A stretch of 64,000 nucleotides of DNA, from the NCBI RefSeq assembly GCF_014196455.1, contig NZ_JACIDS010000002.1, forward strand, positions 248,001-312,000. The letters run 5' to 3'. The notes beneath the pieces are model-generated. The model had not been told where the DNA came from and searched no databases. It saw nothing but the letters and a program-made list of their open reading frames with translations. Both the position numbers and the translations under genes were made by a program. Each line of letters opens with the position of its first letter. Position 1 is the first letter of the stretch. Shown in pieces: positions 59,085 to 64,000 of the stretch. Origin of the DNA: Kaistia hirudinis. Lineage in GTDB: Bacteria > Pseudomonadota > Alphaproteobacteria > Rhizobiales > Kaistiaceae.

Positions 59085-59495
59085 GTGCAGGCTCATACCT
59101 ATCTGATCTTCAACGGCGATTGCCGCGAGGCGTTCGAGACCTATGCCAGGATCCTCGGCGGGCGGATCGAGACGATCACGACCTTCGCCGGCACGCCGGC
59201 CGAGGGCTATGTGCCGCCGCAATGGAAGGACAAGATCCTGCACGCGGTCCTGCGCTTCGGCGACACCACGCTGTTCGGCTCCGACGCCGGCTCGCCCAAC
59301 TACGAAAAGCCGCAAGGCTTCGGCGTCGCGCTGGTACTCGACGACCCGGCCGAAGCCGAACGCATCTTCAACGCGCTTGCCGAAGGCGGCACGATCACCA
59401 TGGCCTTCTCCCAGACCTTCTGGGCCCACCGCTTCGGCATGGCAACCGACCGCTTCGGCATCCCGTGGATCGTGAATTGCGAGAAGGCGGGCTGA
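59085..59495 (+). CDS. VOC-superfamily protein, PhnB-like
   Basis: A 136-residue protein of the glyoxalase/bleomycin-resistance fold, PhnB-like branch. YLIFNGDCREAFETYARILGG at the start, KILHAVLRFGDTTLFGSDA in the middle and WAHRFGMATDRFGIPWIVN at the end are characteristic. GTG 59085 is chosen because GAGGAGG (59071-59077) lies ahead; an ATG at 59037 lacks a site. It completes the ArsR-SRPBCC-VOC trio. The substrate is unknown. Confidence 0.9.
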   Translation: MQAHTYLIFNGDCREAFETYARILGGRIETITTFAGTPAEGYVPPQWKDKILHAVLRFGDTTLFGSDAGSPNYEKPQGFGVALVLDDPAEAERIFNALAEGGTITMAFSQTFWAHRFGMATDRFGIPWIVNCEKAG

Positions 59496-59727
59496 GGCTC
59501 GCGAGCACGGATCGATCGAGGAGCGATCCGCCTCCGACGGGAGGCGGGCAGGATCGTGCGGCCAGATCTTCGTGATCGTCCGATCGGCACAAAAGCAAAC
59601 GCTGCTCCATGTGCCAGAGGCGTTTGGGCGCGGCGTGCAGCCCGTTGCCGGAATACTTGCGCGGCGCTCGACAAACGCGGATGCCCTCACTAATGGTTGT
59701 CGGCCTTGGACATGGGGAGTCTCCGGC

Positions 59728-60690
59728 GTGCTGGCTGATGCATTTCGGGATCCGAACGGCTATTTTCAGCGCGCTCGGTTCCGCTTCTCTGAATGGCGTT
59801 CGGGCTATGAGACGGAGCGGCGGCTGTTCGAGGAGCGGCACGGCTATCCGCTGGATCTCGAAAATCCGAAGAGCTTCAGCGAGAAGATCTGCTGGAGAAA
59901 GCTCTTCGACCGGAACCCTCTTCTGCAGCGCGTCGTGGACAAATATGCCGTGCGCTCCTATGTGACCGAGATTCTCGGCAAGGAACGCGCCGACGAGGTT
60001 CTGATCCCCCTTCTTGCCGTAGCGACCGACCCGGCCGACATTCCGTTCGATAAGCTGACGGGCAACTATATCCTCAAGGCCAATCACGGCTCGGGCCTCA
60101 ATCGTCTGGTCCGCGATGACCGGCAACCCGATGTGCCTGCCATCATCAACCAATGCCGGGAGTGGCTGTCGCAGTCCTACGGGACCTACAAGCACGAATG
60201 GGCTTATGAGGCGATGCGCCGGCGCATCGTCGTCGAGGCGCTGATCGACGACGGCAAGGGCCTGCCGGTGCGCGAGTGCAAGTTTCAGATGTTCGGCGGA
60301 AAATGCGCGCTGATCCAGGTGCTCAATGATGGCTCCTGGTATGATGGCGTCAATTACCTGGGAGACGGGCTGCCGACGCTCACCTACTTCACGCCCGACT
60401 GGAAGCCGCTGGACGTCTCCTGGTATTACTATTGGATCGACCTCAATTTTCCCTCCGCGCCGTCGCAGCCGCGGCCGAAGAACCTTGATGCCATGATCGA
60501 GCTGGCGGAGGCGCTGTCCAAGCCGTTCGACTATATGCGCGTCGACCTCTACGAACTGCCCGACGGTATCCGCTTCGGCGAGCTGACGCCCTATCATCTG
60601 AGCGGCCACAGCCGGATCACACCCCGCGAATTTGACTTCGAGCTCGGTTCGCTCTGGCAATTGCCCGGCCGTCGGGGGGCGCGGACATGA
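59728..60690 (+). CDS. TupA-like ATP-grasp protein
   Basis: A 320-residue protein of the ATPgrasp_TupA family, thought to form amide or peptide bonds on cell-surface glycans. Diagnostic segments are NPKSFSEKICWRKLFDRNP near residue 50, VVDKYAVRSYV, GNYILKANHGSGLNRLV near 115 (nucleotide lysine and glycine-rich loop) and MRVDLYELPDGIRFGELTPYHLSG near the end. GTG 59728 has GGGGAG about 9 bases ahead; an earlier frame start at 59572 is unsupported. It opens the cluster that continues to the right edge. Its stop overlaps the next gene (60687-60690). Confidence 0.85.
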   Translation: MLADAFRDPNGYFQRARFRFSEWRSGYETERRLFEERHGYPLDLENPKSFSEKICWRKLFDRNPLLQRVVDKYAVRSYVTEILGKERADEVLIPLLAVATDPADIPFDKLTGNYILKANHGSGLNRLVRDDRQPDVPAIINQCREWLSQSYGTYKHEWAYEAMRRRIVVEALIDDGKGLPVRECKFQMFGGKCALIQVLNDGSWYDGVNYLGDGLPTLTYFTPDWKPLDVSWYYYWIDLNFPSAPSQPRPKNLDAMIELAEALSKPFDYMRVDLYELPDGIRFGELTPYHLSGHSRITPREFDFELGSLWQLPGRRGART

Positions 60691-61388
60691 CGACCGGGCT
60701 CGCCGGCTGGCCGCTGCGGAGCGCCTCTCTTGACGATCTCGCCTGGCTCTGGCCGGCTGATTCCGGGCCCATCGTCGAATTGCCGAAGGACCTGGTGGAC
60801 CGTCTCTCGATCAAGCGGCTTCGAGGATTGCTCGAGCGTGTCGACGTCCCGGTTTCCCTTGCCGGCACGACGGATCTCGCGCGCCTCGGCGGGATGGATT
60901 GGGAGCTCTATCAGCGCTATCTCGACATCCAGATCGCGCAACTGCACTTCCTGGGAGCGACGCTGTTCCGCGGCTTCCTCCAGGCGGAGACGCAGGAAGA
61001 GTTCCGCCGGGCACTGGATCGCCTGAAGGCCTATGCGGCGACGCACGCCGATGTCGAATTCGTCCTCGAAACCCACAATGGCTGGGAAACGACGCTCTCC
61101 GGGCTGACGGAGCTTCTTGCCGACACGCCGTTCCGCCTGGTGGTCGATTTCGCGAATATCGAGCATGCCGACGCGAAGGAGTTCATCCTCGAAGGTGGCA
61201 TTGGAGGCCGGATCGCCTATTTCCATACCCGCAGGCTGCCGGAATCGGGCGATCGTTCGGCGATCTCCGTAACCGAGCGGCGGGCTCGCGCGGCTTATCC
61301 GGAGCACGCCTTCCTGTGGGAGCCGAAGTCCATCGGGACGCGGCGCGCTCTCGAGGTGTGGCGCTCGCGGGGCGGGCGTTCGGGTTGA
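60687..61388 (+). CDS. TIM-barrel protein, xylose-isomerase-like
   Basis: A 233-residue cytoplasmic protein that fits the xylose-isomerase/AP-endonuclease-type barrel. Candidate metal or substrate residues lie at strand ends: FVLETHNGW near residue 128, VVDFANIEHAD near 155, AYFHTRR near 178 and FLWEPKS near 212. It is shorter than usual family members (about 260-290). ATG 60687 overlaps the ATP-grasp stop, so the two are coupled. It may isomerise or epimerise a sugar used by the cluster; I cannot name the reaction. Confidence 0.75.
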   Translation: MTTGLAGWPLRSASLDDLAWLWPADSGPIVELPKDLVDRLSIKRLRGLLERVDVPVSLAGTTDLARLGGMDWELYQRYLDIQIAQLHFLGATLFRGFLQAETQEEFRRALDRLKAYAATHADVEFVLETHNGWETTLSGLTELLADTPFRLVVDFANIEHADAKEFILEGGIGGRIAYFHTRRLPESGDRSAISVTERRARAAYPEHAFLWEPKSIGTRRALEVWRSRGGRSG

Positions 61389-61489
61389 GTCGAGGCGTGG
61401 CCAGCCTTACGTCTGACGCCGACCGAAGGGGCGGCAGGCCGATGTGGACCGAGTTCGAAACCAAAACCAACTCCTGACTTGAGACAGCA

Positions 61490-63025
61490 TTGGCGCCCTC
61501 CCTCAACATTGAAAAGCTCATCGAGAGCATTGGTCTACCGGCTGCGGAGCTGAGAGCCTATCTCATCGACGAGATCGACGAATTCCTCGCCGCGAGCGAC
61601 CCGGCTCATCTGGAAGACGAGTTCGGCGACGTTCTCTTCGCCTTGTTGTCCATGGCCTGGGCGCATACGGGACGTCACTATCCGCTGCGCCTCGATCTTG
61701 CCGAGGCCAAGCTGCAGCAGCGACTTGGCCGATATGGAACGATCAGCCGCCACGCGCCCAAATACACCGACGATCGCATCGCCGAGATGGAGGTGGGCGT
61801 CGTCCATTTCGTCCTCGGCCAGTTCGGCGGCCAGTGGCAACGCTTCGACGCGCTTCAGAACGGCACGGTCGCGGAAATCTCCGCGCTGACGGATGCGCCG
61901 TTCGGCGAGCCGGATCGCCTGACGAACCACTGCATCGTGACCTTCGGCGATGTCGACGAGATTTCGTACGAGATCATCTATTCCGCGGCGACACAGCGCG
62001 CCGGCAACACGATCCGCTGCCGTATTCCGGATTTCCTGTTCCTGCGCGCAAAGAAGGGCCTCATCTTCGATCAGCTTGCCGGGCTGATGGCGTTGCAGGT
62101 TTCGGCCGCGCTGGACGGCATACGCCTGTCTCCCTCGGCGATAGCCCATTTCCACAGCTGGGAATCCGGATTTCTGACCGATTCGGTCTCGTTCTGGCGG
62201 CGGATCGCGACGATGAAGACGATCTTCTCGCCCTATCTGACGACGGGCCGTCTCAAGGCATTGATCGAGAGCCGCGGCGGCACAGGGTGGACGATGACGC
62301 CGGACGAGCTTCGCGTCGCCGCGGAATATGAGCGCAAGCTCAGCCAGGCCTGCATGCGCGTCGTGCTGGAGAGTTCGCTCGATCGGGAGTTCTTCACCTC
62401 CTGGGTTCACCCCGAGCGTCTCGACCTGCGCTCCTTCGCCGTTGATCGCCAGGCCTCGTTCGCAGTGGAGCCACCGCGCGCCGGCCGGCTGACCTTCATT
62501 GCCGGCGGACGCCCGGTTCGCGAAAAGGGCTTCGTCGAGCTTTGCCGGGAATTCGCCGCGGTTCGTGACTGGGCGAAGGACGAGGGGGTCGACGTCTCGC
62601 TGGCCATCCTGTGTCGCGAGCGCAATCGCAGCAAGGGCCAGGAATACATCGTCGATATCGAGCGCGTCATCGCCGAGAAAAACCTCGGTGATTGCGTATC
62701 GATCGAGCCGAAAGTCTCCCTCGACGAACTAAAACAACGAATCCGGGAATCGGACGCGTTGATCGTGCCGTCGATCTACGATCCCTATTGCCTGATGCCG
62801 ACCTATTCGGTGGAGGAGAAGCGGCCGTCTTTCGTGTCCACGCATGCGGGGATCGCGGAGAATATCAGATCGCCTGAATTCACCTTCGATCCCGAGCTTG
62901 AGGGCGACCTTGTTCGTGCCATTCGTGCATGGTACGCGAAGCCCTCTGTCTTCGCGTTCGAGTCCCGCTTCGCAAGTTATCTCGGCTTATATCTCGCCAA
63001 AGAGTCTCGGCCGCTATGGGAATAG
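61490..63025 (+). CDS. MazG-like pyrophosphohydrolase fused to a GT-B glycosyltransferase domain
   Basis: A 511-residue two-part protein. Residues 15-85 match the MazG NTP pyrophosphohydrolase helix bundle, with intact catalytic acids in the ExxE-x12-ExxD arrangement (E28, E31, E44, D47; segment EDEFGDVLFALL). Residues from about 335 form the C-terminal half of a GT4-like GT-B transferase: LTFIAGGRPVREKGFVELC, VSIEPKVSLDELKQRIRESDALIVPS and FVSTHAGIAENI. The GT4 ExxxxxxxE motif is changed to D-x7-Y (DPYCLMPTY). The start is TTG 61490, without a strong ribosome site. It lies between the barrel protein and the aminotransferase, which it overlaps by 10 bases. Confidence 0.78.
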   Translation: MAPSLNIEKLIESIGLPAAELRAYLIDEIDEFLAASDPAHLEDEFGDVLFALLSMAWAHTGRHYPLRLDLAEAKLQQRLGRYGTISRHAPKYTDDRIAEMEVGVVHFVLGQFGGQWQRFDALQNGTVAEISALTDAPFGEPDRLTNHCIVTFGDVDEISYEIIYSAATQRAGNTIRCRIPDFLFLRAKKGLIFDQLAGLMALQVSAALDGIRLSPSAIAHFHSWESGFLTDSVSFWRRIATMKTIFSPYLTTGRLKALIESRGGTGWTMTPDELRVAAEYERKLSQACMRVVLESSLDREFFTSWVHPERLDLRSFAVDRQASFAVEPPRAGRLTFIAGGRPVREKGFVELCREFAAVRDWAKDEGVDVSLAILCRERNRSKGQEYIVDIERVIAEKNLGDCVSIEPKVSLDELKQRIRESDALIVPSIYDPYCLMPTYSVEEKRPSFVSTHAGIAENIRSPEFTFDPELEGDLVRAIRAWYAKPSVFAFESRFASYLGLYLAKESRPLWE

Positions 63026-64000
63026 GTAATCTTCTTCTCGGCGATATCGAACAATTGCTCACTGATCGGGCGATCGGTCGACGCAAGCTGCACCGCATGT
63101 TCGGCGCGGAGTCCCAATGCTGGATCGCGGAGAACGAGATCCAGAAGATGTATCCCGGCACATCGTGCCTGCTGCTCCCCTCCGCGACCGTCGGTCTGGC
63201 GCTCGCGCTCGAAGCGCTCGACTTCGAGCCTGGCAGCGAGGTCCTCATTTCCGGCTTCGGTTGGCTTTCCAACTGGTCCTGCATCCACCGGGCCGGCCTC
63301 GTTGCGAAGTTCCTGCCCCTTGATGACAATCTGCAGTTGCGGGCGGAGGACGTCCGCGAACGGATCACCGAACGGACCCGGGCGGTCATCGTCACCCATC
63401 TCATGGGGCGCGGCCAGCAAGCGGTGGCGGATATCGCCTCGATCTGCGCCGAGCGCGGCGTCGTTCTGCTCGAGGATATCGCGCAGTCCTTCGGCGTCTC
63501 CGTTCGTGGCCGTCGGGCCGGGACGTTCGGTCTCGCCGCGTGGTGCTCGTTCAACCACCACAAGCTGCTCAGCACCGGCGATGGCGGCTGCATCCTGTCG
63601 ACCGACCCGGAGTTCTTCGCCCGCATGAGCGGCCTGCATGACCACGGGCTCGTGATGAAGGGCGGCAAGCGCCGGCCGGGCGCGTCGATCCAGCCCGGAA
63701 TGTCGTTGCGCTCGAGCGAGGTCGTCGGAGCGGTGCTGCGGGGGCAACTGGCGCGCTTCAACCTGATCCGCACGAAGATCCTCATGCAGTACGACGCGAT
63801 GGCACAGGCTTGCCAGCGTCGTCTGCAGGTCCGGCTGATCGATCCGAATCCCGGTGATCTGCCCTTCACGGTCCTCTTCGAGCGTCCGGATCGCCTGATC
63901 TATCCGACGCTCGTCGACTCGGGTTGGCACGTGGCCTCCAACGTGCCGTGGCAGCGCGAGTCTTTCGAAGGCGCACTCGCGTCGGATCCGGCCCTGGCAG
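63016..64000 (+). CDS. DegT/DnrJ/EryC1-family aminotransferase, C-terminus cut by window edge
   Basis: The first 328 codons of a PLP-dependent sugar aminotransferase read from ATG 63016. PSATVGLALALEALDFEPGSEVLI is the N-terminal PLP-phosphate region, LLEDIAQSFG holds the cofactor aspartate, and SFNHHKLLSTGDGG contains the lysine that forms the internal aldimine. Family members aminate keto-sugars bound to nucleotides (for example UDP- or dTDP-linked). The first 10 bases overlap the MazG-glycosyltransferase gene. It indicates that an amino sugar is a building block of the cluster's product. Confidence 0.88.
   Translation, partial: MGIGNLLLGDIEQLLTDRAIGRRKLHRMFGAESQCWIAENEIQKMYPGTSCLLLPSATVGLALALEALDFEPGSEVLISGFGWLSNWSCIHRAGLVAKFLPLDDNLQLRAEDVRERITERTRAVIVTHLMGRGQQAVADIASICAERGVVLLEDIAQSFGVSVRGRRAGTFGLAAWCSFNHHKLLSTGDGGCILSTDPEFFARMSGLHDHGLVMKGGKRRPGASIQPGMSLRSSEVVGAVLRGQLARFNLIRTKILMQYDAMAQACQRRLQVRLIDPNPGDLPFTVLFERPDRLIYPTLVDSGWHVASNVPWQRESFEGALASDPALA

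Follow-up and report, generated by a model that had tools for sequence, protein, structure and literature searches.

A MazG-type domain joined to a GT-B-type glycosyltransferase in one reading frame of a genus-variable operon of Kaistia hirudinis

The window analysed here is a stretch of 64,000 nucleotides from Kaistia hirudinis (contig NZ_JACIDS010000002.1, forward-strand positions 248,001 to 312,000). It contains the beginning of an operon of eight same-strand genes, which are separated by gaps of -4, 101, -10, -1, -11, 3 and 45 bases and encode, in this order, a TupA-like ATP-grasp protein, a TIM-barrel protein, the fusion protein studied here, a DegT aminotransferase, a LOG-like protein (Lysine_decarbox), a GNAT-type acyltransferase, a GT2 plus methyltransferase protein and a Gb3-synthase-like glycosyltransferase. 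Comparison of the third product with known families confirmed that a MazG-type domain (residues ~5 to 85) is joined to a GT-B-type glycosyltransferase (residues ~100 to 511) in one frame. Coordinates of the features are presented in Table 1.

Table 1. Features of the fusion gene and of its surroundings, in window numbering
Feature	Position	Strand	Remarks
Fusion gene, MazG-type plus glycosyltransferase	61490..63025	+	511 codons, TTG start
MazG-type domain, residues ~1-85	61490..61744	+	E28, E31, E44, D47, K74 and R78 present; no GFDW-type motif; S54 in place of the conserved Asn
Linker, residues ~86-99, up to possible internal ATG (M100, 61787)	61745..61786	+	presumed boundary
GT-B-type glycosyltransferase, residues ~100-511	61787..63022	+	C-terminal half by profile, N-terminal half presumed
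Glycosyltransferase motifs			FHSWESG from residue 221; GGRPVREKG near 339; D431...Y439 at the EX7E place
Island gene 1, TupA-like ATP-grasp	59572..60690	+	PF14305, E 7.7e-33; start codon unsettled
Island gene 2, xylose-isomerase-like TIM barrel	60687..61388	+	PF01261, 25.7 bits, below cut-off 31.1
Island gene 4, DegT/DnrJ/EryC1 sugar aminotransferase	63016..64000	+	continues to 64140 outside the window; 10-base overlap with the fusion gene
Island, in-window part	59480..64000	.	total ~9 kb, to ~68449

The first-pass annotation had described a single uninterrupted frame at this position, and all 511 codons are indeed open from the TTG. In a start-codon scan of the frame, this TTG is the sole ATG, GTG or TTG upstream of residue 52; its Shine-Dalgarno sequence is weak and agrees with the consensus at three of six places, while that of the internal M100 agrees at two of six. 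The G+C content over the three codon positions is 0.674/0.40/0.726 for residues 1 to 95, 0.605/0.459/0.834 for residues 96 to 300 and 0.63/0.441/0.735 for residues 301 to 511, and on this ground all three parts look translated in the fusion frame. The G+C content of the gene as a whole is 0.613, against 0.669 for the window.

Identification of the N-terminal domain relies on several comparisons. The Pfam MazG model (PF03819) matched residues 20 to 56 with an E-value of 0.0014 and 19.3 bits in hmmscan, where the cut-off is 22, and reached 22.6 bits against the same cut-off in a six-frame search of the genome. Residues 1 to 95 alone matched E. coli MazG (3CRA/3CRC) with an E-value of 4.4e-4, residues 28 to 80 being aligned with 174 to 230, while the whole fusion protein gave only 0.067. 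The NCBIfam model PRK09562 matched residues 1 to 95 with an E-value of 3.3e-4 and 20.4 bits, far below its full-length cut-off of 208. A profile of our own, built without the query from the C-terminal domains of 20 of the 22 available MazG proteins (loci L027 and L036 being excluded), gave 32.4 bits for residues 1 to 95 and 30.1 for the whole protein, scores which are biased towards the query as most members had been found through it. Residues 96 to 511 scored -0.2 with this profile, the reversed sequence 1.9 and 2000 shuffled sequences at most 6.3 bits.

All four metal-binding acids of the ExxE...ExxD motif occur at the residues named in the first-pass annotation (E28, E31, E44 and D47), and the last helix has its Lys and its Arg as K74 and R78. 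In the alignment, E28, E44, G46, D47, F50, K74 and R78 are identical in all 20 MazG relatives. The column of E31 holds a Glu in 12 of the 20, which we attribute to a misplaced gap, since a pattern search found E..E...E.GD...K...R in the query and in each of the 20 relatives. In M. tuberculosis MazG, the counterparts of the four acids are Mg2+ ligands (PMC10014863). That the catalytic residues are kept speaks for hydrolase activity. Two features present in all 20 relatives are absent from the query, namely the GFDW-type motif, in place of which it has GLPA, and a conserved Asn, replaced by S54; the alignment also places one extra residue in the query behind the GD helix motif. Both missing features are typical of MazG C-terminal domains, and we know of no formal definition of the family by them. 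Their loss suggests a different nucleotide substrate, and could equally reflect lost activity.

The host genome also has a separate two-domain MazG, as do 13 other searched genomes of the genus. Derivation of the MazG part from this protein is not favoured, the two being 29% identical over 89 residues. An accessory match on contig C3 is, by our own reading, HisE beside hisF.

The remainder of the protein resembles GT4-type glycosyltransferases. It matched PF00534 with an E-value of 6e-5 and 23.1 bits (cut-off 26.4), PF13692 with 22.7 bits (cut-off 27) and NCBIfam EpsE (NF041876) with an E-value of 1e-7 and 31.6 bits, far below the full-length cut-off of 400. A profile of our own from seven of eight glycosyltransferase loci gave 67.0 bits, a score that favours the query because all seven had been found through it; 2000 shuffles scored at most 5.9 and residues 1 to 99 scored -3.1. 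The eighth locus was excluded as it resembles, by our own reading, a mechanosensitive channel. The closest solved structure is a weak match (6kih, E-value 0.31). Residues 100 to 311 found no match in the profile libraries searched, where the best-matching stretches begin at 312 to 356. That these residues form the N-terminal Rossmann half is suggested by their length, by the FHSWESG motif and by what looks like a strand at their start, following M100. The first-pass annotation had proposed an N-terminal MazG domain followed by a C-terminal GT-B half; the two-domain architecture holds on comparison with known families, and the second part is probably a whole GT-B rather than its C-terminal half alone. 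The canonical EX7E motif does not occur in this part, its place being taken by D431...Y439. Glycogen synthases also have a Tyr at the second of these places. A role in defence was rejected, the GT4-conflict model PF20706 giving 21.5 bits (cut-off 26). The PADLOC comparison covered the fusion protein and four of the other seven island proteins, and gave no match at an E-value of 0.01.

The genes flanking the island are about 9.0 kb apart here, against 44 bases in the congener G025 and 1052 bases in G015. Four congeners were compared at this site, and in the other two (G022 and G019) the compared stretch holds the right flank only. Of 14 genomes of the genus, three (the host, G015 and G025) matched the left flanking gene at an E-value of 1e-20, and all 14 matched the right one at 1e-100. 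As the island is absent between the same flanks in two congeners, it is variable within the genus, and we infer an acquisition in the host, not losses in the congeners.

Both halves of the fusion were found together in one protein in the host only, in the family sample (one of 28 genomes), the class sample (one of 385) and, at an E-value of 1e-4, the order sample (one of 377). The phylum sample gave matches in 31 of 398 genomes at 0.01, the host included; the other 30 matched through one part only, within residues 14 to 101 (21 matches), 323 to 503 (eight) or 235 to 288 (one). These four samples overlap, and those of class, order and phylum were scored with up to three or four candidates per genome. 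Sets of viral contigs, plasmids and phages contained no relatives of the fusion. A scan of genome contigs with six exact eight-residue patterns, which detects close relatives only, matched 22 stretches, one of them a relative, an ordinary Bacteroidales MazG. No full-length homologue was found in these searches, the relatives being ordinary MazG proteins or ordinary glycosyltransferases that correspond to one half each. By these samples and close-relative scans the architecture is rare, which does not imply that it is unique. The first-pass annotation knew of no described enzyme of this architecture, and we likewise found none in searches of the open-access PMC literature and no second such protein in the genome samples.

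The closest known systems each resemble the fusion in part. It has in common with the C-terminal domain of E. coli MazG (3CRA/3CRC; PRK09562; PF03819) the catalytic acids, the Lys and the Arg, but contains one MazG domain instead of two and a joined glycosyltransferase, and is set apart from the MazG relatives by the lost GFDW-type motif and Asn and by one extra residue behind the GD helix motif. With GT4-type GT-B enzymes (PF00534; EpsE, NF041876) it appears to have in common the R/K-containing GGRPVREKG loop, the usual order of segments and the C-terminal half. Unlike them, it scores below every Pfam cut-off, has D431...Y439 for EX7E, has an unmatched N-terminal glycosyltransferase half and bears an extra N-terminal MazG domain. 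In YabN a pyrophosphohydrolase of the superfamily is likewise joined to a second enzyme, which is however a methyltransferase and not a glycosyltransferase; the YabN model of NCBIfam matched the fusion weakly (E-value 0.031). HisIE (PMC10242683) is likewise a fusion of an all-alpha NTP pyrophosphohydrolase, whose partner is a cyclohydrolase and not a glycosyltransferase.

We tentatively favour, with rather less than even confidence, the reading that the protein is a real two-domain enzyme in which a competent nucleotide hydrolase acts in cis with the transferase and clears a nucleotide of the transfer reaction. The operon would be one for a surface glycan and laterally variable, and the GT-B part would, as is usual for its family, transfer a sugar from a nucleotide sugar. 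The MazG part, whose catalytic centre is kept in sequence, would be a magnesium-dependent nucleotide pyrophosphohydrolase, and would convert a nucleotide linked to the transferase into the monophosphate, the first candidate being the released nucleoside diphosphate and otherwise a competing triphosphate. Product inhibition would thereby be relieved, and the transfer would run in one direction only. The MazG domain probably also dimerises the enzyme. Clearing of the released diphosphate is chemically plausible because dimeric dUTPases, members of the superfamily to which MazG belongs, accept dUDP in addition to dUTP (PMC12524310). This reading gains from the catalytic pattern common to the query and all 20 relatives, from the difference between this MazG part and the housekeeping two-domain MazG of the genome, from the absence of the GFDW-type motif and Asn of the relatives and from the packing of the gene into a glycan operon. 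Against it count the PF03819 score, which lies at the cut-off, and the changed Asn and GFDW-type motif, which may equally mean lost activity. Ordinary MazG is moreover described for triphosphates (PMC6850273) and not for products of glycosyltransferases. The fusion is also a single example in the samples searched, so that selection for the join finds no support.

A more specific form, a glycosyltransferase with a built-in pyrophosphohydrolase of altered substrate range, which destroys its own nucleotide by-product or a competitor and so drives the transfer forward, we hold to be doubtful. If the coupling is true, a MazG domain would serve for something other than nucleotide housecleaning, a transferase would be seen to be pushed forward by on-the-spot nucleotide removal, and practical use in enzymatic glycan synthesis could follow.

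The join itself may be accidental or neutral, which we regard as somewhat unlikely though a serious contender: neighbouring small MazG and glycosyltransferase genes of a shuffled glycan island would have lost their boundary, the halves would be independent, and M100 may start the glycosyltransferase alone. That none of the samples contained another protein with the two halves fits such an origin, as does the position of M100, which appears to stand directly before the first strand of the glycosyltransferase like a native start, and so does a TTG start with a weak Shine-Dalgarno sequence after a 101-base gap. However, the catalytic pattern is intact, as it need not be in a decaying passenger, the codons show the pattern of a translated gene, and the Shine-Dalgarno sequence at M100 is no better than that of the TTG.

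The putative MazG bundle could instead be a non-catalytic module that dimerises the transferase or binds a regulatory nucleotide. MazG proteins form dimers or tetramers (PMC10014863), and neither the conserved Asn nor the GFDW-type motif is left, but the four metal-binding acids and K74 and R78 are kept and would be unneeded for pure dimerisation, and we consider this module unlikely. It is more improbable still that the MazG part edits the donor before transfer, by hydrolysing either a nucleotide sugar that is unusual or unwanted or a nucleotide competing with it. The unusual motifs of both halves (D431 and Y439 in one, the missing GFDW-type motif and Asn in the other) are in line with such editing, and the neighbouring genes, among them one for an aminotransferase and an isomerase-like one, point to a rare sugar. 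However, the Tyr at the second EX7E place recurs in glycogen synthases, so that the donor need not be unusual on this account, and to our knowledge no MazG acts on nucleotide sugars, which counts against editing.

Several neighbours of the fusion gene deserve mention. The LOG-like gene two places downstream (L006:8141-8644, or 64140-64643 in window numbering, outside the window) matched PF03641, and its protein gave a weak match (E-value 0.0016) to a family containing nucleoside-monophosphate phosphoribohydrolase. It could act on the product of the MazG part, a possibility on which we build nothing. The protein has PGGLGTLAS, without the Glu of the usual motif, PGGxGTxxE; its activity may be lost or changed, and it is given no weight. 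The TIM-barrel protein (60687-61388) is as isolated as the fusion, matching only itself among 385 class genomes at an E-value of 1e-5, and the DegT aminotransferase matched only itself in 189 genomes at 1e-40. The TupA-like protein was matched in six of 181 genomes including the host, which has a second copy; four of the six other TupA places were compared with the fusion protein, and none of the four matched it at an E-value of 0.1. A frame of 2066 codons in a class genome (L070:7109-13306, genome G095) includes a TupA-like stretch and perhaps encodes a large multidomain glycan protein. The operon also contains a second fusion (L006:9579-11570; 65578-67569 in window numbering), in which a GT2-type glycosyltransferase domain is followed by a methyltransferase (PF13704 and PF13578).
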